From: Alphaproteobacteria bacterium
Lineage (GTDB): Bacteria; Pseudomonadota; Alphaproteobacteria; GCA-2731375
DNA length: 64,000 bases
Reading direction: 5' to 3'
Assembly: GCA_021776235.1 (NCBI GenBank)
Contig: JAJFGG010000050.1
Span: 1-64,000 of the forward strand
The notes under the pieces were generated by a model. That model was not told where the DNA came from. It was given only the letters and a program-made list of their open reading frames with translations, and made no database searches. Every line of letters starts with the position of its first letter. Position 1 is the stretch's first letter. The position numbers and the translations under genes are program-made. Positions 26,117 to 36,867 of this stretch are shown piece after piece.

Positions 26117-26165
26117 AAAAAAAAAAAATTTCCCAGCTGGGGGAGGTCGCTTACCAGCTGGGAAA
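26117..26165 (-). terminator. Rho-independent terminator, minus strand
   Basis: On the minus strand a perfect 12-bp stem (TTTCCCAGCTGG with its complement at 26129-26140 and 26154-26165) with a 13-base loop is followed by twelve Ts (A-tract at 26117-26128). It has no minus-strand gene immediately upstream now. Confidence 0.85.
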
Positions 26166-26352
26166 GAGAGAGAGAAGATGGCATCATCGTGGGCAAAAAG
26201 AATTAACAACCTGTTAATGCCACCAGGCATCGCCGTCGCGCTATTTCCCTGCATCTTCCGTATGGCGCGGCCTGCGAGACCCCTCGCGCTGGTCATTTAT
26301 TGCGCGCCCGTACGAACAAGGACCTAGCCGGTGTACGGCTAAGCCCTTGAAA

Positions 26353-26722: not shown

Positions 26723-28384
26723 GTGTCTGAAAAGCTTAGTCTTGCTTCAAAAGGTATGGTGAAGCAGCCTGGTTCTTCGGAGGTATCACCGCTCTCGAAA
26801 GAACTCGTGATAGGATTTGTTGGATACGCGGGGGCAGGTTGTTCAATAGCTGCAAAACGTTTAGAATTATTTCTCCAGCAAGTACATTATAAAGTTGAAT
26901 TTATAAAGCTTAGTTCTCTTATTGAGAGATCATCGGTCACAAAACCCAAGGCCGTGATCGATCATGGAGTTGGCGCGGGACAATCGCGCCTTGAACGCGC
27001 TTCGACGCTTCAAGATCTAGGTGATAAAATACGGGATCAGCACGGCCATCACGCAGTTGCCGCCCTATCAATCAAAGAAATCATTGACCTTAGGGGAAGG
27101 GCTGCTCCTGGAGAGCAAAAAATCGCATTTATGCTTGATTCAATAAAGCACTCGGATGAAGTCGAGCTGCTTCGCCGTGTTTATGACCAGTCGTTTCGAC
27201 TTATTGCTGTTCATTGCGATCGAACCAAGCGCGAAGGAAGACTCATCGGTGAAGTGACATCAAATGCCAAATATGCCGGTGTCCCAAGAAATGACGTTTT
27301 GACCTATATGGAAAGAGATGAGAAAGATCCAGATCGAAGACACGGTCAACAGGTTCGAGACGCTTTTTATTTGGCTGATTTCTTTATTGACAACAATGCG
27401 AACGGGCAAAGTGGGGAACAGTTAAACGACGACCTCGCGCGCTTCGTCCAACTTCTCCTTGGCTCCGGCCTCTTCCGACCGACTAGAAGCGAACGCGCGA
27501 TGTACCACGCTCATGCTGCGGCGTTGCAATCATCGTGCCTCTCGAGACAAGTAGGAGCGGCCTTAATGGCCTCAGATGGAGTGATTGTCTCAACGGCGAC
27601 CAACGATGTTCCGAAATTTGGCGGTGGTGTTTATGACGAAGATAGTGAACCAGATAATCGTTGCTTTGCTTGGGAATGGACAGACGGGAGCCTAGAATTT
27701 GTTGGATGTCATAACCAACGGAGGAAGAAATTCTTGCGAGAGAATATGGTCACCTGGATGGCAGATAAGCTTACAAACGGGCTTGCAGCAGCTGCGCATC
27801 CAGTTCCAAGCGAAGGCACAGATACCGCAGGGAGGGCGCGGGAAGAGGCTGTGAAAGCTATTCGGAAGTATTTCATGGAGAACGCTGAACTAATGGAAGG
27901 GTTGCCAGGTGTAAAGGATATTGTGGAGTATTCACGTTCAATCCATGCTGAAATGAATGCTGTTCTTTCAGCGGCCCGCAATGGCGTTTCTCCCGTTGGC
28001 ACTACGCTTTTCTGTACTACCTATCCTTGCCACAACTGCGCACGTCACCTTGTTACCGCGGGAGTGCAGGCAGTGCACTATATAGAACCATATGTGAAGA
28101 GTCTGGCTACGGAATTGCATTCAGACTCCATAGTAAGTGAACTGCCTGCACCGAAACCGGGCATGCAGGTTCCTAAGCCAACGCATATGTTAATTTCACC
28201 GTTTACAGGTGTAGGGCCACGAATGTTCGAAGATTTTTTTACGAGTAGAACAGAAATGAAAAGCAATGACGGTTCCTATATCGCGCCCAAAGGAGGGGAA
28301 CCGCCGCATGCGGTGAGATTGCTCGATTTGAAGCTAGTAGAAGAGGGGGCGGCAGCACTTATAGGTGAGGCACCCAATGCCTAA
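26723..28384 (+). CDS. Anti-phage-type dCTP/dCMP deaminase with N-terminal P-loop domain
   Basis: 553 residues in two parts. The N-terminal half starts with a P-loop-like strand and turn, GFVGYAGAGCSIAAKRL (about residues 31-47), where the usual Walker Lys is replaced by Cys, as in the AvcD/defence deaminases. The C-terminal deaminase has the zinc ligands His408-Ala-Glu and Cys436-x2-Cys439 (PCHNC). FGGGVYDEDSEPDN in between is also typical. Family members deplete dCTP/dCMP during phage infection and are held off by an RNA or nucleotide signal. Start is GTG with GGGAG upstream. The next gene overlaps by 8 bases. Composition is AT-richer than the core genes. Confidence 0.88.
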   Translation: MSEKLSLASKGMVKQPGSSEVSPLSKELVIGFVGYAGAGCSIAAKRLELFLQQVHYKVEFIKLSSLIERSSVTKPKAVIDHGVGAGQSRLERASTLQDLGDKIRDQHGHHAVAALSIKEIIDLRGRAAPGEQKIAFMLDSIKHSDEVELLRRVYDQSFRLIAVHCDRTKREGRLIGEVTSNAKYAGVPRNDVLTYMERDEKDPDRRHGQQVRDAFYLADFFIDNNANGQSGEQLNDDLARFVQLLLGSGLFRPTRSERAMYHAHAAALQSSCLSRQVGAALMASDGVIVSTATNDVPKFGGGVYDEDSEPDNRCFAWEWTDGSLEFVGCHNQRRKKFLRENMVTWMADKLTNGLAAAAHPVPSEGTDTAGRAREEAVKAIRKYFMENAELMEGLPGVKDIVEYSRSIHAEMNAVLSAARNGVSPVGTTLFCTTYPCHNCARHLVTAGVQAVHYIEPYVKSLATELHSDSIVSELPAPKPGMQVPKPTHMLISPFTGVGPRMFEDFFTSRTEMKSNDGSYIAPKGGEPPHAVRLLDLKLVEEGAAALIGEAPNA

Positions 28385-28898
28385 CGAAACGTTACTAAAG
28401 TTTCCGGTAGATCTTGATGGGGCGCCAATCCAAGTCAGAAAGGCCGAGGGAACGCTCGATTTATTCGGAGGCAATGACAAGGGCAGTGGCAGAATTGTTT
28501 TTGTCGATGTTGATGCACTGTCAGAGGAAATTCTGCTGCGAATAATCGCGAGGAATGCCATTGCATCGGTCGTTGATCTTCGGCCACGACCTGTTTTTAT
28601 GAGGCCACGATTTAGGCATAAACGGGTTGTGTCTTATCTGTACCGGCGTAATGTCCTGTATATTGAATATGCTTTTCTACTTTTGAGTATGTCCAAGTCC
28701 CCTTATACAGCGAAAAAGAAGAGTGGATCTGCTGACGAAGAAATAGAAAATGCGCTGAAGCGTGGTCTGACGATGTTTCTTTATGATGAAGAAGCGAAAG
28801 TAGCCGGTTTAATGGATGATGTGCGACGTAGGTTGAAACGGTTGTCCTCATTCTCAGCTGAATTGCATCCACGTGCGCTGGCGACGAATCGTTCCTAA
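28377..28898 (+). CDS. Small DUF488-like protein coupled to the defence deaminase
   Basis: 173 residues, no confirmed family. Residues about 62-98 (IASVVDLRPRPVFMRPRF, then YLYRRNVLYIEYAF) resemble the DUF488 core, in which a strand carrying Asp-x-Arg is followed by a basic segment and a second strand. The C terminus is helical and basic (KRGLTMFL, DDVRRRLKRLSS). The ATG lies inside the deaminase stop and has GGTGAGG upstream; a GTG 12 bases earlier is an alternative. Strict coupling suggests joint function: regulator, nucleotide sensor or partner enzyme. The coupling is seen; the role is inferred. Confidence 0.72.
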   Translation: MPNETLLKFPVDLDGAPIQVRKAEGTLDLFGGNDKGSGRIVFVDVDALSEEILLRIIARNAIASVVDLRPRPVFMRPRFRHKRVVSYLYRRNVLYIEYAFLLLSMSKSPYTAKKKSGSADEEIENALKRGLTMFLYDEEAKVAGLMDDVRRRLKRLSSFSAELHPRALATNRS

Positions 28899-29067: not shown

Positions 29068-29163
29068 ATGACGAAGCGAAAGCAGCAAAAGGCGGAGTTC
29101 AAGGTGCGGGTTGCCCTTGAGGCTCTGAAGGGGGAGCAGACGGTTGGATGTCGATTTGTTTGA
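29068..29163 (+). pseudogene. IS3-family transposase orfA stub
   Basis: MTKRKQQKAEFKVRVALEAL then KGEQTVG is the start of an IS3-type OrfA (usual form KRK...EFKAKVALEALKGEKTV). It runs out after 27 recognisable codons, into four unrelated codons and a stop. No orfB or right end follows, so an IS end was left behind by deletion or recombination. Confidence 0.8.
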
Positions 29164-29194
29164 TGATTGAGCCGGCATCATAAATGAGTAAAAA

Positions 29195-30148
29195 TCAAAT
29201 GCACATCGCTTCAGGCTTTATTGGTTCACAGGCCCATATACCGTGATCATATTCGCTGCAAAAATGATCTATGAAGGCGCTTTGCATCTGATCACATTTA
29301 TTTATTTCTACTGCATTATTGATGGACCAATGCGTACTAGCGGGTGTTTTCAAGGGAAAAAATAGCCCTTGGCAAATTTGTTGCGCATAATCCACCTCCC
29401 ATGCAAGTGGTAAATATACGCGGTGAACAATATCGTTGCACCACTGGTAAATTTTTTTGAGAATTAGGAATGTGACCGCCTTGAAGTCGAAGTAGCTATT
29501 ATTTTTCTCGATAAAGTCGTAGTGGAAAAGGTGTTTTAGGCGAGGTGTGTCGCCTGTTTTGTTGTAGATTTCAACAGCAACAAGGCGGAAGAATTTTGCT
29601 TCAAGGGCTTGTCGTAAGACAAATACGGAAACGATCCGTGCAGTCTTGTGGTCAAAATGAAGATATTGATTTCGAAAAGCGGATTGAACCGCGAGTTGTT
29701 GGCTAATACGAAAGACCTCCCATGTGTGGACACTGTATGATTTGTGACCATGAAAAAAAGTGTAGGTGGGATTTTTCTGGCGTTCGAGGTATTCCGCAAT
29801 AGGCTTCAGATCGTGAATGAAGTCCCTTACAAGCTCATGGTATCTCATAAGGTCTTTGTACTGGGGTTTAGTGTGGTTTCCTTGAATGTTATTTACAAGA
29901 CTATCAAAGCATAGCTTCGCGACGACAAGGTTTGCTCTGCAATAGCCGTCAGCTTCACTTTTTTTTTCAAATGATTGTTTCGTGGAAAAAACCCAGCTGA
30001 CCAAATATTCCTTCTTGTATGATTTTTTGACATGGCGTTGCATTAGCCAACTGAGGTGATTTGCAAAGTCAGTAATAGCTCCCTCCGCCGAAATACGGAT
30101 TTTATCATGACCATCGATTTTCTTAAGAAGTGTCTCGGCGGGGGTCAT
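29195..30148 (-). CDS. Unrecognised 317-aa protein in the island
   Basis: No family recognised. The protein is AT-rich in coding, helical, with many Tyr, Phe, His and Lys residues. The middle has LRQALEAKFFRLVAVEIYNK and a later IYQWCNDIVHRVYLP, a layout reminiscent of HEPN-type helical bundles that carry a late R/N-x-x-x-H segment, but I cannot confirm that. No signal peptide or membrane segment. It is transcribed toward the IS stub on the opposite strand from the deaminase pair. In a defence-type island an abortive-infection role is a guess. Confidence 0.6.
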   Translation of the reverse strand: MTPAETLLKKIDGHDKIRISAEGAITDFANHLSWLMQRHVKKSYKKEYLVSWVFSTKQSFEKKSEADGYCRANLVVAKLCFDSLVNNIQGNHTKPQYKDLMRYHELVRDFIHDLKPIAEYLERQKNPTYTFFHGHKSYSVHTWEVFRISQQLAVQSAFRNQYLHFDHKTARIVSVFVLRQALEAKFFRLVAVEIYNKTGDTPRLKHLFHYDFIEKNNSYFDFKAVTFLILKKIYQWCNDIVHRVYLPLAWEVDYAQQICQGLFFPLKTPASTHWSINNAVEINKCDQMQSAFIDHFCSEYDHGIWACEPIKPEAMCI

Positions 30149-30551: not shown

Positions 30552-30562
30552 TAATTGGCTCC
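30552..30562. repeat. Candidate attR within tRNA-Asn 3' end
   Basis: TAATTGGCTCC matches 26353-26363 exactly. It contains the TGG complement of the CCA end. The intact tRNA is on this side, as expected when an element integrates into a tRNA 3' end and restores it. Confidence 0.5.
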
Positions 30563-30631
30563 CCGGGCAAGACTCGAACTTGCGACAAGGCGGTTAACAG
30601 CCGCCTGCTCTACCAACTGAGCTACCGGGGA
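30556..30631 (-). tRNA. tRNA-Asn (anticodon GTT)
   Basis: 76 bases including an encoded CCA. The acceptor stem TCCCCGG pairs with CCGGGGA, discriminator G. The D-arm contains AGCTCAGTTGGTAGAGC and the T-loop reads GTTCGAGTC. The anticodon GTT is at 30596-30598 on the minus strand, position 34 of the tRNA. A terminator follows within 10 bases. Confidence 0.97.
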
Positions 30632-30759
30632 TCAGTTGGCCGGCGCGGCTTGGGACCGCGCAGCGGGCGTTTATTACCAGATACCGCGCGGCTGCGCCAG
30701 TCGGAAAGACTCTAATGCGTGGGTGAATTCCAGGTTCTGCTTGACTCTCGAAGAAATGA

Positions 30760-30774
30760 GAACAAAATAGGAAC
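30760..30774 (+). promoter_or_regulatory. LexA (SOS) box, direct-repeat type
   Basis: GAAC, seven bases, GAAC; a third GAAC follows at 30781-30784. The GAAC-N7-GAAC (GTTC-N7-GTTC) form is the alphaproteobacterial LexA site. It lies about 30-45 bases upstream of the imuA start and predicts DNA-damage induction of imuA-imuB-dnaE2. Confidence 0.88.
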
Positions 30775-30805
30775 ATAATTGAACTCATACGGAAAGGGCC
30801 GTGCC

Positions 30806-31768
30806 GTGACGAGATCCGGGCGGGGGGCTGCGGTTGCCGCGTTGCGCCGGCGCGTTGCGGCCATCAGGGCCACAAAGGCTATTGATACCGCCATGCAGGG
30901 CGCCCCGGCCCCTCCCTTGACCCTGGGGGTGGCGGCGATTGACCGCATCCTGCCGGGCGGCGGCCTGGCCCGCGGCGCCCTGCATGAAGTGTTGGGCGGC
31001 CATGACCGGGCGCCGAACGGCCATGCGAGCAATGGGGGCGGGGCGGCATTGGCTTTCACGGCGGTGCTGGCGGCCCGGCGGGCCGCCGCAGTAGAAAACG
31101 CCGGGCCGCAAGATAGCACGGGCAATGGCCAGGTGCTGTGGTGCCCGGCGCGCCCGGGGCTGTACGGGCCGGGTCTGGCGGCCTTTGGCCTTGGCCCGGG
31201 GCAGTTGATCCTGGTCCATGCCCGGGATGATCAACAGCGCCTGTGGGCCATGGAGGAGGGCCTGAAATGCACCGGCCTGGCCATGGTGGTGGGCGAGGTG
31301 GGGCGTCTGGACCTGGGGCAAAGCCGGCGTTTGCAACTGGCGGCGGAGGCCTCGGGCGTCACCGCCCTGTTGCTGCCCCGAAAACCCGCATTGGGGCCGG
31401 ACGGTGACAGCCCGGGCCTGAGCGCCGGCTTGACCCGCTGGCGGATCACCGCCCTGCCCAGCGCGCCGACAACCAGCGCGCCGACAACCAGTGCGCCGAC
31501 AGGGGGTTATGCGGGTATCGGCGCCCCCCGCTGCCGGGTCGAATTGCTGCGCTGCAAGGGCGGCCGGCCCGGGGACTGGCTGTTGCAATGGAACGGCGAC
31601 GGCTTCAGCTGCCTGCCTGCGGGGGAGGCAAACGCTGCCGGGGACGGACAGCACGGGCATGAGCACGGGCATGAAGATGATGGCGAACGGACAGAAACGA
31701 ATCCTCTCCCTGTGGCTGCCGCAATGGCCGACGGACCGGCTGTACCGCGCCTGGCGGCGCGCCCCTAG
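30806..31768 (+). CDS. imuA: ImuA, translesion synthesis accessory protein
   Basis: 320 residues. GVAAIDRILPGGGLARGALHEV near residue 50 and LAMVVGEVGRLDLGQSRRLQLAAEASG further on match ImuA, a RecA/SulA-related protein that joins ImuB and DnaE2 in error-prone repair. Start at GTG 30806 has GGAAAGG eight bases upstream; an in-frame TTG 27 bases earlier overlaps the LexA box region. Near residue 225 a 15-base unit repeats three times, coding Ser-Ala-Pro-Thr-Thr. The last 98 bases overlap imuB. Confidence 0.9.
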   Translation: MTRSGRGAAVAALRRRVAAIRATKAIDTAMQGAPAPPLTLGVAAIDRILPGGGLARGALHEVLGGHDRAPNGHASNGGGAALAFTAVLAARRAAAVENAGPQDSTGNGQVLWCPARPGLYGPGLAAFGLGPGQLILVHARDDQQRLWAMEEGLKCTGLAMVVGEVGRLDLGQSRRLQLAAEASGVTALLLPRKPALGPDGDSPGLSAGLTRWRITALPSAPTTSAPTTSAPTGGYAGIGAPRCRVELLRCKGGRPGDWLLQWNGDGFSCLPAGEANAAGDGQHGHEHGHEDDGERTETNPLPVAAAMADGPAVPRLAARP

Positions 31769-33374
31769 GGCGGCGTGGCCGGACGATTGCACGGCGCGGG
31801 AGCTGGGGCGGGAGCGGCCCCTGGCCCTAATCATGGCCGGGCAGGGCCAGCAGGCCGGTCAACAGGCCGGTCAGCGCATTGGCGCCGTCAATGGCGCGGC
31901 GGCCGAAGCCGGCGTGCAGGCGGGCATGATGCTGACCGATGCCAGGGCGCTGCTGCCGGGCCTGTCGGTCCAGCCCATGGCGCCGGAGGAGGATGCCCGC
32001 GCCCTGGCCGGCCTGGCCGATTGGTGCGGCCGTTACAGCCCCTGGATCAGCCTTGACGAAGAGGCGGCGGGGCAATACGGCATCTGCCTCGATGTCACGG
32101 GCTGTGCCCATCTGTTCGGTGGCGAAGCGGCCATGCTGGATGATTTGTCACGGCGCCTGGCGGCTTTCGCCATCCAGGCCCGGATGGCCATCGCCGACAG
32201 CCTGGGCGCGGCCTGGGCCACAGCGCGTTATGGGGCCCGTTATGGCGACAGCACGGCGATTGTCCCCGTTGGCGGCGCCAGGGCGGCCCTGGCCCGCTTG
32301 CCCGTGGCGGCCTTGCGCCTGTCGCCCGCCGCGGCGGATGCCCTGGCACGCCTTGGCCTGGGGCGGATTGGCGAATTATGCTCCCTGCCGCGCGGGGCCC
32401 TGAGCGCCCGCTTCGGCCGCGAGGTGACCGATCGCCTGGACCAGGCCCTGGGCCGGGCTCCCGAGCCGCTTTCGCCGCGCCCGCCCCGCACCAGTTTCTG
32501 GAGCCGCCTGGCCTTTGCCGAGCCCATTGGCCACCGCGACCATATCGCGCGGGCCGCCGGGCAATTGGTGGCGGAGCTGTGCGCCGCGCTGGCGCGGGAG
32601 GAACGCGGCGCCCGGCGCCTGGAGCTGCGCCTGTATCTGGCCGACGGCACGGTGCAGCGGATCGCCGCGGGCCTGAACCGGGCCAGCCGGGACCCGGCCC
32701 ATCTGTTGCGCCTGCTGGCCGAACACCTGCCCAGCCTGGAGGCCAATTTCGGCGCCGATCTGATGCTCCTCATGGCCGGGCAAAGCGACCCCCTGCCGGC
32801 CGGGCAGGACAGCCTGGATGGCGCCGCCGCCCAGATCTGCTCCGGGGACGGACCCGGGGCCGGCCCCGGGGCAGATCTGGCGCCCCTGCTGGACCGCCTG
32901 GGCAACCGCCTGGGCGCCGCCAATGTTGCCCGTTTCGCATCCGTGCAAAGCCATCTGCCGGAGCGCGCCGTCCGCCTGGTGCCGCCCCTGACGCCGGCAG
33001 CCGGGGCAGGGCCCGGCGTGGAAACGACGGCGCCCTGGCGCCACATGGCCCGGCGCCCGGTGCATCTGCTGCCGCGCCCGGAACCGATCGAGGCGGTGGC
33101 CGAGGTGCCCGACGGCCCGCCGGTGCTGTTTCGCTGGCGCGGCATCGCCCACCGGGTGCAGCGCGGCGACGGCCCCGAACGCATCGCGCCGGAATGGTGG
33201 CATGACATGCAGGCCGAAACCGCCGCCCCGGCTGATTTAGCCGGGGAAACCCGCGATTATTACCGTATCGAGGACAGCCGGGGACAGCGTTACTGGCTGT
33301 ACCGCCGGGGCCTGTATGGCGGGGCGGGCGGGCCGTCTCCGCCCGCGTGGTACCTGCATGGCTTTTTTGCCTGA
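31671..33374 (+). CDS. imuB: ImuB, inactive Y-family polymerase homolog
   Basis: 567 residues. The opening RILSLWLPQWPTDRLYR takes the place of the active-site hDhDxFfaxVE motif of Y-family polymerases; the first metal-binding Asp is gone, which is normal for ImuB. ICLDVTGCAHLFGGE and the helix-hairpin region LARLGLGRIGELCSLPRGAL are conserved. ImuB acts as a clamp-binding adaptor between ImuA and DnaE2. Start ATG is not certain; Met codons are clustered (MKMMANG), all inside the end of imuA. Confidence 0.92.
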   Translation: MKMMANGQKRILSLWLPQWPTDRLYRAWRRAPRAAWPDDCTARELGRERPLALIMAGQGQQAGQQAGQRIGAVNGAAAEAGVQAGMMLTDARALLPGLSVQPMAPEEDARALAGLADWCGRYSPWISLDEEAAGQYGICLDVTGCAHLFGGEAAMLDDLSRRLAAFAIQARMAIADSLGAAWATARYGARYGDSTAIVPVGGARAALARLPVAALRLSPAAADALARLGLGRIGELCSLPRGALSARFGREVTDRLDQALGRAPEPLSPRPPRTSFWSRLAFAEPIGHRDHIARAAGQLVAELCAALAREERGARRLELRLYLADGTVQRIAAGLNRASRDPAHLLRLLAEHLPSLEANFGADLMLLMAGQSDPLPAGQDSLDGAAAQICSGDGPGAGPGADLAPLLDRLGNRLGAANVARFASVQSHLPERAVRLVPPLTPAAGAGPGVETTAPWRHMARRPVHLLPRPEPIEAVAEVPDGPPVLFRWRGIAHRVQRGDGPERIAPEWWHDMQAETAAPADLAGETRDYYRIEDSRGQRYWLYRRGLYGGAGGPSPPAWYLHGFFA

Positions 33375-33412
33375 GGCGGGGCTAAAATGACTACGCAGGT
33401 ATATTCATCACA

Positions 33413-33560
33413 CAGTCGCCCTCGCGAAAGCGGGGGCCCATGCCTGAGAGCATGCGCGTGATCAGCGCTGCAGAGCATCCCGCCCTGCGTCCTGCCCGCT
33501 ACCTCCGGGCGGCTGTCTCTATGCCTCAGGCATGGATTCCCGCCTGCGCGGGAATGACGG
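33413..33560. repeat. Pair of inverted REP-like repeats in the imuB-dnaE2 spacer
   Basis: Two 36-base arms, 33413-33448 and 33525-33560, are in inverted orientation and match at about two-thirds of positions. The right arm holds a perfect 8-bp palindrome ATTCCCGC-CTGC-GCGGGAAT; both share CCATGCCTGAG. This resembles a proteobacterial REP doublet. The right arm would code MDSRLRGND in frame with dnaE2, so that upstream extension is repeat-derived and not the real start. Confidence 0.75.
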
Positions 33561-33582
33561 CAAGCGATGGCCAGATCTGGCC

Positions 33583-36500
33583 ATGACTTATGCCGAACTG
33601 CAGGTGACCTCCAATTTCAGCTTTCTGCGCGGCGGCTCCCATCCGGATGAACTGGCCATTACCGCCGCCGCCTTGGGCCTGTCGGCCATTGCCATAACCG
33701 ACCGCAACAGCCTGGCCGGGGTGGTCCGGGCCCACAAGGCGGCGAAAGACGCCGGCATCCGCCTGCTGGTCGGGGCCCGGCTGGACCTGCAGCAGGCGGT
33801 CGCTCCAGGGCCCGGCCCGGACAGAGAAGGGGGCCTCAGCCTGCTCTGTTTTCCCACCGACCGGGCTGCCTATGGCCGGCTGTCGCAACTTTTGACCGTG
33901 GGCCGGCGCCGGGCCCCGAAAGGGCAATGCTGGCTTACCCTGGGGGATGTTTTCGCCCACGCCCAGGGGCAGATTTTCGTCGCCCTGGCGCCAAATGAAC
34001 CGGACGCCGCCTTTGCCGGGCAGCTTGGCGAACTGGGCCAACGCTGGCCGGGACGCTGTTACCTGGCCGGTCATTATCTCTATTCCGGCGATGACCGCCG
34101 CCGCCTGGTCCGCCTGGCCGGCCTGGCCGAGGCGGCGCAAACGCCCCTGCTGGCGACCAACGATGTGCATTATCACAGCCCCGGCCGGCGGCCCCTGCAG
34201 GATGTGCTGGTCTGCATCCGGGAACACTGCACCCTGGCCGGGGCCGGCTTTCATCTCGAGGCCAATGCCGAGCGGCACCTGAAGGGCGGGGCCGAGATGG
34301 GCCGGCTGTTCGCCGACCATCCCGAGGCCGTGGCCCGCACGGTGGAAGTGGCCGAACGCTGTCATTTCTCCCTGGACGAGTTGCGTTACGAATACCCCGC
34401 CGAACCGGTGCCCCGGGGCCGCAGCGCGCAACAGGAACTGGAACATTTGACCTGGCGCGGCGCGCACGAACGTTATGGCGATAGCATCGAGCCCGGCGTG
34501 CAGGAACTGCTGCGCCACGAACTGGCCCTGGTCGGCGAACTGGATTACGCGCCCTATTTCCTGACCGTGCACGATATCGTCCGCTTTGCCAGGGAGCGGG
34601 GCATTCTCTGCCAGGGCCGGGGCTCGGCCGCCAATTCCGCCGTTTGCTATTGCCTGGGCATCACGGCGGTGGATCCCTCGCGCCTGGATCTTTTGTTCGA
34701 ACGCTTTATTTCGGCCGAGCGTGACGAGCCGCCCGATATCGATGTGGATTTCGAGCACGAGCGGCGCGAAGAGGTGATCCAGTACGTCTATGAAAAATAC
34801 GGCCGCGACCGCGCCGGCATGACCGCCACGGTGATTACCTATCGGGCCAAAAGCGCGATCCGCGAGGTCGGCAAGGCCCTGGGCCTGTCCCTGGATGCGG
34901 TCGGCGCCCTGGCCGGCAATGTCTGGGGCTGGGGCGGCGATCAGGTCGAAGGCGACAAGGTGCGCGAAATCGGCCTCAACCCGGACGATCCCACCGTGGC
35001 CATGGCGATCCGCCTGGCGCGCGAACTGGCCGGCTTTCCCCGCCATCTGTCCCAGCACGTGGGCGGCTTCGTCATCACCCGCGGCCCGCTATCGGAGGTG
35101 GTGCCGATCACCAACGCGGCCATGGCCGGGCGCACGGTGATCGAATGGGACAAGAACGATCTGGACGCCCTGGGCATCTTGAAGATCGATCTGTTGTCCC
35201 TGGGCATGCTGACCTGCATTCGCAAGAGCTTTGACCTGATCGAAAAGCATTACGGCCGGAAACTGAGCCTGGCCAGCGTGCCGGCCGAGGACGAAGCGGT
35301 TTACGACATGCTCTGCCGGGCCGATTCCATTGGCGTCTTCCAGGTTGAAAGCCGGGCCCAGATGACCATGCTGCCGCGCCTGCGGCCGCGCAATTTCTCT
35401 GATCTGGTGATCGAGGTGGCGATCGTCCGGCCCGGGCCCATTCAGGGCGACATGGTGCACCCCTATCTGCGCCGCCGGGCCGGCAAGGAACGGGTGGATT
35501 TCCCCTCCCGGGATCTGGAGGCGGTCCTGGGCAAGACCCTGGGCATTCCCCTGTTTCAGGAGCAGGCCATGCGCATTGCCATCGTCGCCGCCGGCTTCAC
35601 CCCGTCCGAGGCCGACCGCCTGCGCCGCGCCATGGCCACCTTCCGCCATACGGGCACCATCCACACCTTCCGCCACAAGATGATCGAGGGCATGGCCGCG
35701 CGCGGCTACGACAGGGACTTCGCCGAACGTTGTTTCAAGCAGATCGAGGGCTTTGGCGAATACGGCTTTCCGGAAAGCCACGCGGCCTCGTTCGCCCTGC
35801 TGGTCTATGTCTCCGCCTGGCTGAAACGGCATTACCCGGCCGTCTTTGCCTGCGCCCTGTTGAACAGCCAGCCCATGGGCTTCTACGCCCCGGCCCAGAT
35901 CGTGCGCGACGCCCGCGAACATGGGGCCGAGGTGCGCCCCGTCGATATCAACCATTCGGACTGGGATTGCACGCTCGAGGCCGATAGCCCCGTCAGTCAC
36001 TTGGCCAGGCATCCGGCCCCGCACCCGGCCCGGCATCCGGCCCGGCATCCAGCTCTGCGCCTCGGCCTGCGGCAGATCAGGCATTTCCCGGCGGCGGCGG
36101 CGGAGATCCTGGTAGAGGCACGGGGCAGGGGCTATGCGGGGCCGGAGGATCTGTGGCGGCGCACCGGTCTGGGCGCGGGCGAATTGGAAAAACTGGCCAA
36201 TGGCGATGCCTGGCGTTCCACCGGGCTGGACCGCCGGGCCGCCCTGTGGGCCCTGAAACGCCTCAACCAGCCGGAACTGCCCCTGTTCGCCGCCGCGCAG
36301 ATCCGCCCGCCCAGCGCCCATGCGCCCACAGAGGCCGCCGTCGCCCTGCCCGACATGCCCATCGGCGAACAGGTGGTGCAGGATTACGGCAACCTGCGCC
36401 TGTCCCTGAAGGATCATCCCCTGCGCCTGTTGCGGCCGGCCCTGGCGGCGCGGCGGATCATCGAGAACGAGGCCCTGTTGAACCTGTCCCATGGCGCCCG

Positions 36501-36867
36501 GGTGACGGTGGCCGGCCTGGTTCTGGTGCGGCAACGGCCGGGCACCGCCAAGGGGGTGATCTTCATCACCATCGAGGATGAGGGCGCCGTCGCCAACATC
36601 ATCGTCCGCCCGCCGATCTTCGAGCGCTTCCGCCGGGTTGTCCTGTCCGCCCGCCTGCTGGCGGCGAAGGGCCGGGTCGAGCGCGAGGGCATGGTGATCC
36701 ACCTGCTGGCCGAGGAACTGAGCGATCTGTCGGGGGATCTGGACAGCCTGCGCGAAGACCCCGGCCTGGACCCGCACAACCCGGCCTTCGCCCGCCGCCG
36801 CCGCACGGGCCACCCCCGCAACGCCAACCCTGCCGCGCCCATCCCCCCGCCCCGGAGTTTTCGTTAG
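33583..36867 (+). CDS. dnaE2: DnaE2, error-prone DNA polymerase III alpha subunit
   Basis: 1094 residues. The PHP domain opens with LQVTSNFSFLRGGSHPDELA, the DnaE2 form (DnaE1 has YSLLDGA). The polymerase core has GRGSAANSAVCYCLGI, PPDIDVDFEHERREEVIQYV with catalytic Asp residues, and later the FPESHAASFALLVY block. The C terminus retains an OB-fold region. It is shorter than DnaE1 and is the catalytic part of the ImuA/B mutasome. Near residue 810 a tandem His-Pro-Ala-Arg repeat is inserted. Start chosen at MTYAEL, after the REP repeat. Confidence 0.95.
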   Translation: MTYAELQVTSNFSFLRGGSHPDELAITAAALGLSAIAITDRNSLAGVVRAHKAAKDAGIRLLVGARLDLQQAVAPGPGPDREGGLSLLCFPTDRAAYGRLSQLLTVGRRRAPKGQCWLTLGDVFAHAQGQIFVALAPNEPDAAFAGQLGELGQRWPGRCYLAGHYLYSGDDRRRLVRLAGLAEAAQTPLLATNDVHYHSPGRRPLQDVLVCIREHCTLAGAGFHLEANAERHLKGGAEMGRLFADHPEAVARTVEVAERCHFSLDELRYEYPAEPVPRGRSAQQELEHLTWRGAHERYGDSIEPGVQELLRHELALVGELDYAPYFLTVHDIVRFARERGILCQGRGSAANSAVCYCLGITAVDPSRLDLLFERFISAERDEPPDIDVDFEHERREEVIQYVYEKYGRDRAGMTATVITYRAKSAIREVGKALGLSLDAVGALAGNVWGWGGDQVEGDKVREIGLNPDDPTVAMAIRLARELAGFPRHLSQHVGGFVITRGPLSEVVPITNAAMAGRTVIEWDKNDLDALGILKIDLLSLGMLTCIRKSFDLIEKHYGRKLSLASVPAEDEAVYDMLCRADSIGVFQVESRAQMTMLPRLRPRNFSDLVIEVAIVRPGPIQGDMVHPYLRRRAGKERVDFPSRDLEAVLGKTLGIPLFQEQAMRIAIVAAGFTPSEADRLRRAMATFRHTGTIHTFRHKMIEGMAARGYDRDFAERCFKQIEGFGEYGFPESHAASFALLVYVSAWLKRHYPAVFACALLNSQPMGFYAPAQIVRDAREHGAEVRPVDINHSDWDCTLEADSPVSHLARHPAPHPARHPARHPALRLGLRQIRHFPAAAAEILVEARGRGYAGPEDLWRRTGLGAGELEKLANGDAWRSTGLDRRAALWALKRLNQPELPLFAAAQIRPPSAHAPTEAAVALPDMPIGEQVVQDYGNLRLSLKDHPLRLLRPALAARRIIENEALLNLSHGARVTVAGLVLVRQRPGTAKGVIFITIEDEGAVANIIVRPPIFERFRRVVLSARLLAAKGRVEREGMVIHLLAEELSDLSGDLDSLREDPGLDPHNPAFARRRRTGHPRNANPAAPIPPPRSFR

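Follow-up and report, generated by a model that had tools for sequence, protein, structure and literature searches.

An anti-phage dCTP deaminase with an overlapping, co-inherited DUF488-like gene: a candidate two-gene unit with a putative clamp-docking subunit

The closest described systems are the AvcID type III toxin-antitoxin systems, known from two Vibrio species (V. cholerae and V. parahaemolyticus) and from E. coli ETEC. In these the enzyme AvcD, which deaminates dC nucleotides, is kept inactive by an RNA, AvcI, until infection leads to the loss of that RNA (PMC10511110). The deaminase considered here is encoded in the window, the whole 64,000-nucleotide stretch of alphaproteobacterial DNA that was analysed. 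It belongs to the same two-domain family as AvcD, with which it shares the intact HAE/PCxxC active site and a mobile-element setting. AvcD, however, works with the AvcI RNA, and no protein partner follows the validated ETEC copy on plasmid p58, where a convergent gene begins 11 nt beyond the deaminase. The window deaminase is followed by a protein partner with which it is probably coupled and belongs to another branch of the deaminase tree. For deaminases outside the branch that uses the AvcI RNA, a protein subunit with a replication-clamp motif offers a specific, testable answer to the question of how phage is sensed.

The first-pass annotation described the first gene as a 553-residue fusion of a degenerate P-loop domain to a zinc deaminase (HAE 408, PCHNC 435-439) with the layout of AvcD and the anti-phage dCTP deaminases. 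Each of these features was found at the position given, and the protein is of the type proposed. With 434.3 bits it passed the curated equivalog cut-off (400 bits) of NCBIfam NF041025, 'anti-phage dCTP deaminase', and it matched the PADLOC dCTPase model with an E-value of 4.6e-146. In the AF2 model (pLDDT 82) two domains are seen, a P-loop domain that resembles adenylate kinase and one with the fold of dCMP deaminases. For the former the top Foldseek match was 3lw7, an adenylate-kinase-related P-loop protein (TMt 0.77). Its P-loop is degenerate, reading G34-YA-G37-A-G39-CS; the three glycines are invariant among the relatives aligned and the Walker lysine is missing. The deaminase domain matched Pfam PF00383 (E 2.3e-14) and resembled the dCMP deaminases 5c2o, 2hvw and 1vq2 in structure, and the zinc site HAE...PCxxC is intact in the window protein as well as in all 117 relatives examined. 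The window deaminase thus combines a P-loop kinase-like domain with an intact zinc deaminase site and, judged by these matches, is an anti-phage dCTP deaminase of the AvcD type with an intact active site. The features of the locus are collected in Table 1.

Table 1. Coordinates of the features of the deaminase-partner locus in the window.
Feature	Position	Strand	Evidence
AvcD-type anti-phage dCTP deaminase (553 aa, starting with GTG)	26723-28384	+	NF041025, PADLOC dCTPase, AF2 model
Degenerate P-loop, adenylate-kinase-like domain, N-terminal, about residues 27-246	26801-27460	+	Alignment, Foldseek
Zinc deaminase domain, about residues 255-515	27485-28267	+	Pfam PF00383, structure matches
HAE 408-410, zinc ligand and catalytic Glu	27944-27952	+	Motif intact in 117/117 relatives
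PCHNC 435-439, zinc ligands	28025-28039	+	P435, C436, H437 and C439 invariant (25-sequence alignment)
8-nt gene overlap ATGCCTAA, with AGGTGAGG before the ATG	28377-28384	+	Sequence
Partner protein P0002, 173 aa, ATG start	28377-28898	+	One of 54 family members encoded immediately after a deaminase gene
LLKFP, residues 6-10, N-terminal strand-like motif	28392-28406	+	Type found in 42/54 relatives
TLDLF, residues 26-30, degenerate clamp-binding-type motif in disordered linker	28452-28466	+	Family motif; linker pLDDT about 62
Divergent DUF488-like domain, residues 39-165	28491-28871	+	hhalign; pLDDT above 90 over most
D67-L-R69, conserved DxR of the family	28575-28583	+	R69 invariant, D67 at least 90% (54 sequences)

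The second gene had been said to start inside the deaminase stop codon. The overlap itself was borne out; strictly, the start is not inside the stop codon, since with an overlap of 8 nt (ATGCCTAA) the ATG lies 5 nt ahead of it. In 47 of the 54 related loci the partner start lies no further downstream than the stop codon of the deaminase; the overlap is 4 nt in 22 loci and 8 nt in eight. Translational coupling of the two window genes through this overlap is probable.

When P0002 was used by itself as the query, no relatives were found in plasmids, phages, viral contigs, genome contigs or the 61 relatives. For this reason deaminase loci were collected (numbered L, as in L058) and their downstream ORFs read. 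A partner HMM, built at first from the 11 nearest neighbours, had gathered 59 downstream ORFs when it ceased to grow; they represent 54 distinct partners. These 54 relatives of the second ORF lie directly downstream of relatives of the first, more than expected by chance. On a tree of 117 deaminases the partner marks one clade (53 of 54 loci), with two label changes compared with 38.7 by shuffling; the only exception inside the clade is a viral contig (L112). The clade spans four phyla, the Pseudomonadota, Acidobacteriota, Myxococcota and Nitrospirota. The first-pass annotation had proposed a two-gene unit and had suggested counting how often relatives of the small protein occur next to the deaminase. 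For an unbiased test, genomes of the class (385) and of the phylum (398) were searched with the partner profile. All 11 strong matches lie beside a deaminase, and seven of the 14 deaminase-bearing genomes of the class sample have the partner. The linkage is solid, and with the clade marking and the overlap geometry it upholds that proposal: the two overlapping genes appear to form a real, widespread and co-inherited anti-phage unit. Weak genome matches to the partner profile (E 1e-7 to 1e-3) were discarded, nearly all being ordinary DUF488 proteins with the CHR motif. A long frame at L160 is among the weak matches and stands outside the identified DUF488 proteins. In two alphaproteobacterial plasmids, genes for a ThiF-type adenylyltransferase and/or a multiubiquitin domain lie beside partner-bearing deaminases (L021 5477-7479 and L022 1-354).

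The AF2 model of P0002 (pLDDT 85.8) has high confidence across most of residues 39-170 and low confidence in residues 1-38. A resemblance of its core to DUF488, noted earlier from the sequence, is confirmed at the level of the family. Eight of the 54 members matched Pfam DUF488 (PF04343; best E 3.2e-10), and hhalign of the partner profile against the DUF488 alignment gave 96.7% (E 4e-10); P0002 by itself had no Pfam DUF488 match. What the partners share with DUF488 is a core with a D-x-R..P motif. The DxR and one tyrosine are kept across the partner family, and the rest of the domain shows little conservation (mean column identity 17%). The partners differ from DUF488 in lacking C.E..CHR, which is invariant in the nine DUF488 proteins aligned here and missing in 54/54 partners, in carrying an extra disordered N-terminal tail with two linear motifs, and in having a deaminase neighbour in every strong case. 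In 18 of 54 partners no cysteine follows residue 60. With C.E..CHR missing throughout the family, the domain is best taken as a degenerate and probably non-enzymatic DUF488 derivative. Matches of P0002 to PADLOC PDC-M45B (E 0.029) and NCBIfam FecI (E 0.11) were not significant, and comparing the partner with the PDB by Foldseek and VIA-align brought up nothing informative (best Z 6.3).

Proteins that carry a beta-sliding-clamp-binding motif include PolC, DnaE, Hda, UmuC and many transposases. The bacterial consensus is QL[S/D]LF or QxxLF, and the hexapeptide QLSLPL binds tightly (PMC12309361); the motif has been described in transposases (PMC4549789). Like these proteins, the partners have motifs of the QxxLF/QLxLPF type in a disordered segment. 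A QxxLF or a QLxLxF/L hexapeptide occurs in the disordered tail of 44 of the 54 partners, compared with a mean of 3.4 and a maximum of 10 after shuffling, and stricter patterns are matched by 40 of 54 partners against 0.7% of background 40-aa windows. Both the pentapeptide and the hexapeptide (QLxLPF-type) forms occur in the family. The motif lies in the low-confidence tail of the partner model, as expected of a linear motif. These results argue strongly that the partner tail would bind the DnaN beta sliding clamp. The copy in the window partner differs from that of the known clamp-binding proteins in being degenerate: TLDLF lacks the glutamine and fails the strict QxxLF pattern, which makes clamp binding least certain for the window partner. 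Several near relatives also lack the glutamine. From the clamp-type motif to the DxR core the spacing is nearly constant (mostly 38-41 residues), and this could reflect a structural role or docking on the deaminase instead of clamp binding. A strand-like motif (LRLV, VVGFP, ILSFP; LLKFP in the window) is present in 42 relatives against a shuffle mean of 8.4; this LxLV/VVxFP motif possibly docks on the deaminase.

Deaminases outside the partner clade often have a short downstream ORF of 47-112 aa instead. The same clamp motif was found in 18 of 64 such loci (17 without the doubtful L050) compared with 0.75 after shuffling, and in 10 of 1555 control positions; the motifs include QLSLPL, QLSLDF, QLELDF, QMPLF and others. 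In these ORFs an N-terminal clamp motif is followed by a VISF/LxLV-type motif and then by a C-terminal part that reads as helix-like from the sequence. The loci are L011, L051, L071, L074, L076, L083, L088, L095, L098, L102, L103, L108, L114, L127, L128, L131 and L133. These short ORFs would represent a second type of partner for anti-phage dCTP deaminases, one without DUF488. Since two unrelated families carry the same motif pair beside the same enzyme, the motif is likely to be functional and the adaptor to link the deaminase to the clamp, and we consider this recurrence the strongest argument for both. At four loci of a separate deaminase clade (L006, L012, L013, L015) a different ORF of 60-80 aa lies just downstream of the deaminase; it has a WPxWxK or SxWxK motif and no clamp motif, and is a possible third partner type.

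At six related loci (L020, L043, L057, L058, L060, L091) a TIR-APAZ protein has the partner domain as its N-terminal part. A short pAgo is encoded after it, except in L091, where a single protein of 1136 aa contains both the fusion and the pAgo. The three loci searched with PADLOC (L043, L058, L091) matched Aga_TIR-PNTD1-PNTD2 and pAgo_I, and the five fusions on the tree form one clade. The likeness to SPARTA lies in this joining of the partner domain to TIR-APAZ and short pAgo. It ends where the closest TIR-APAZ models of PADLOC begin with the TIR domain, and where the window has the stand-alone partner only, TIR-APAZ and pAgo being absent. That the partner domain stays beside the deaminase in the fusions is as expected of a module that would communicate with the deaminase.

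Our preferred reading, with a probability of about 0.6, is that of a two-gene nucleotide-depletion module in which the partner is a regulatory subunit that docks on the clamp and thereby ties the deaminase to the replisome. As a member of the AvcD/dCTP deaminase family, the window deaminase would convert dCTP/dCMP to dUTP/dUMP on infection and thereby act against phage. The second gene would supply a translationally coupled, co-inherited regulatory subunit made of a catalytically degenerate DUF488-like domain and a disordered two-motif tail, with the LxLV/VVxFP motif docking it on the deaminase and the QxxLF/QLxLPF motif binding the DnaN clamp. Capture or collapse of host replication by the phage, or replication of phage DNA on clamps, would then free the deaminase or concentrate it on the fork, the partner either restraining or recruiting the enzyme. 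In other deaminase branches the same job might be done by the motif-only short protein (47-112 aa), in the E. coli/Vibrio branch by the AvcI RNA, and in the fusion sub-branch by a partner carried on the TIR-APAZ protein of a short Argonaute system. With the partner fused in this way, the deaminase would be a second effector of guide-directed immunity.

The second gene may instead encode a protein antitoxin that has taken the place of the AvcI RNA, keeps the deaminase inactive by binding it directly and is lost or displaced on infection, with QLxLF as part of the deaminase interface and no clamp ligand. We consider this unlikely, since antitoxins usually precede the toxin and the partner follows the deaminase, and since an antitoxin leaves unexplained both the two clamp-binding forms and their recurrence in unrelated small proteins. 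Co-inheritance of the partner with the deaminase would fit an antitoxin, as would the lack of a downstream partner in the AvcI-controlled ETEC AvcD (AvcI biology: PMC10511110). The upstream DNA, hardly conserved in the partner clade, is consistent with the absence of an AvcI-like RNA that an antitoxin would replace. In comparisons not matched for divergence, which weakens them as support for an antitoxin, the partner clade gave one matching upstream pair against 340 coding-control pairs and the other deaminases gave 10 against 113. This low conservation hints that the partner clade has no AvcI-like RNA. A search of Rfam, which may lack AvcI, returned no RNA match upstream of the window deaminase, again in keeping with an antitoxin. 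In two viral contigs (L106, L111) 173 nt upstream of the deaminase are conserved at 75%, the only such case in the partner clade; this stretch may be a promoter or an RNA.

That the second gene is a DUF488-type enzyme acting on the deaminase product or another nucleotide in a two-step pathway is improbable. The DUF488 relation is real and the DxR and tyrosine are conserved, but the C.E..CHR motif is missing in every partner, a third of the family (18/54) has no cysteine after residue 60, and little else of the domain is conserved. Still less credible is a deaminase that acts alone beside an unrelated passenger. The validated AvcD proteins of E. coli and Vibrio, which have no such gene or none described (PMC10511110), would favour it; it is rejected by the deaminase tree, where the partner changes only twice, and is at odds with the linkage, with the overlap in 47 of 54 loci and with fusions that keep the domain beside the deaminase.

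The reading of the partner as a clamp-docking subunit would extend beyond the window. We hold it slightly less than evenly probable that co-encoded clamp-binding adaptors, either DUF488-like or tiny linear-motif proteins, are the general means of control for anti-phage dCTP deaminases other than those of the E. coli/Vibrio branch, and that some adaptors are welded to short-Argonaute/TIR systems, making guide immunity and the depletion of NAD and dCTP one replisome-tied machine. In the fusion loci nucleotide depletion and short-Argonaute immunity are found in one operon. In the open-access literature, a scope that leaves subscription papers and bioRxiv outside, we found no description of a clamp-binding motif among anti-phage effectors, no paper in which DUF488, the sliding clamp or a short Argonaute is linked to a dCTP deaminase in this sense, and no description of the partner, in line with the first-pass view that the second part is undescribed. 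The locus would therefore pair a known effector with an undescribed, clade-defining subunit, whose clamp-docking motif suggests an undescribed link between dCTP-deaminase defence and the replication machinery. To our knowledge no earlier link between this defence and the replisome has been made. Defence-finding tools that call the deaminase alone miss half of the system.

A foreign composition had been noted for the pair, and the values agree: G+C is 0.486 for the deaminase and 0.460 for the partner against about 0.60 in the surroundings. A third gene, reaching to tRNA-Asn (30556-30631), is also G+C-poor, and the pair therefore probably lies in an acquired segment. Conservation with relatives begins at about 30537 and continues onward, which places the end of the segment at the 3' side of the tRNA. 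In the search for an empty site the contigs of the relatives were found to end near the tRNA, and an att repeat of the tRNA 3' end was looked for without success. Between the pair and the tRNA, positions 29195-30148 (minus strand) encode a 317-aa protein (G+C 0.42) with no Pfam, NCBIfam, PADLOC or PHROG match, possibly cargo of the same segment. At about 29069-29165 (plus strand) lies the apparent, truncated start of an IS3-type OrfA (MTKRKQQKAEFKVRVALEALKGEQTV), which would be the remnant of a transposase next to the two genes. The stretch 30556-36867 holds the tRNA-Asn followed by apparent imuA, imuB and dnaE2 (SOS mutasome), named from their ORF sequences only. Upstream of the deaminase, positions 26123-26219 form a stretch of about 97 bp that is partly an inverted repeat (CCCAGCTGGG...CCAGCTGGG) and recurs at 77-78% in two genomes of the same genus, at other places.
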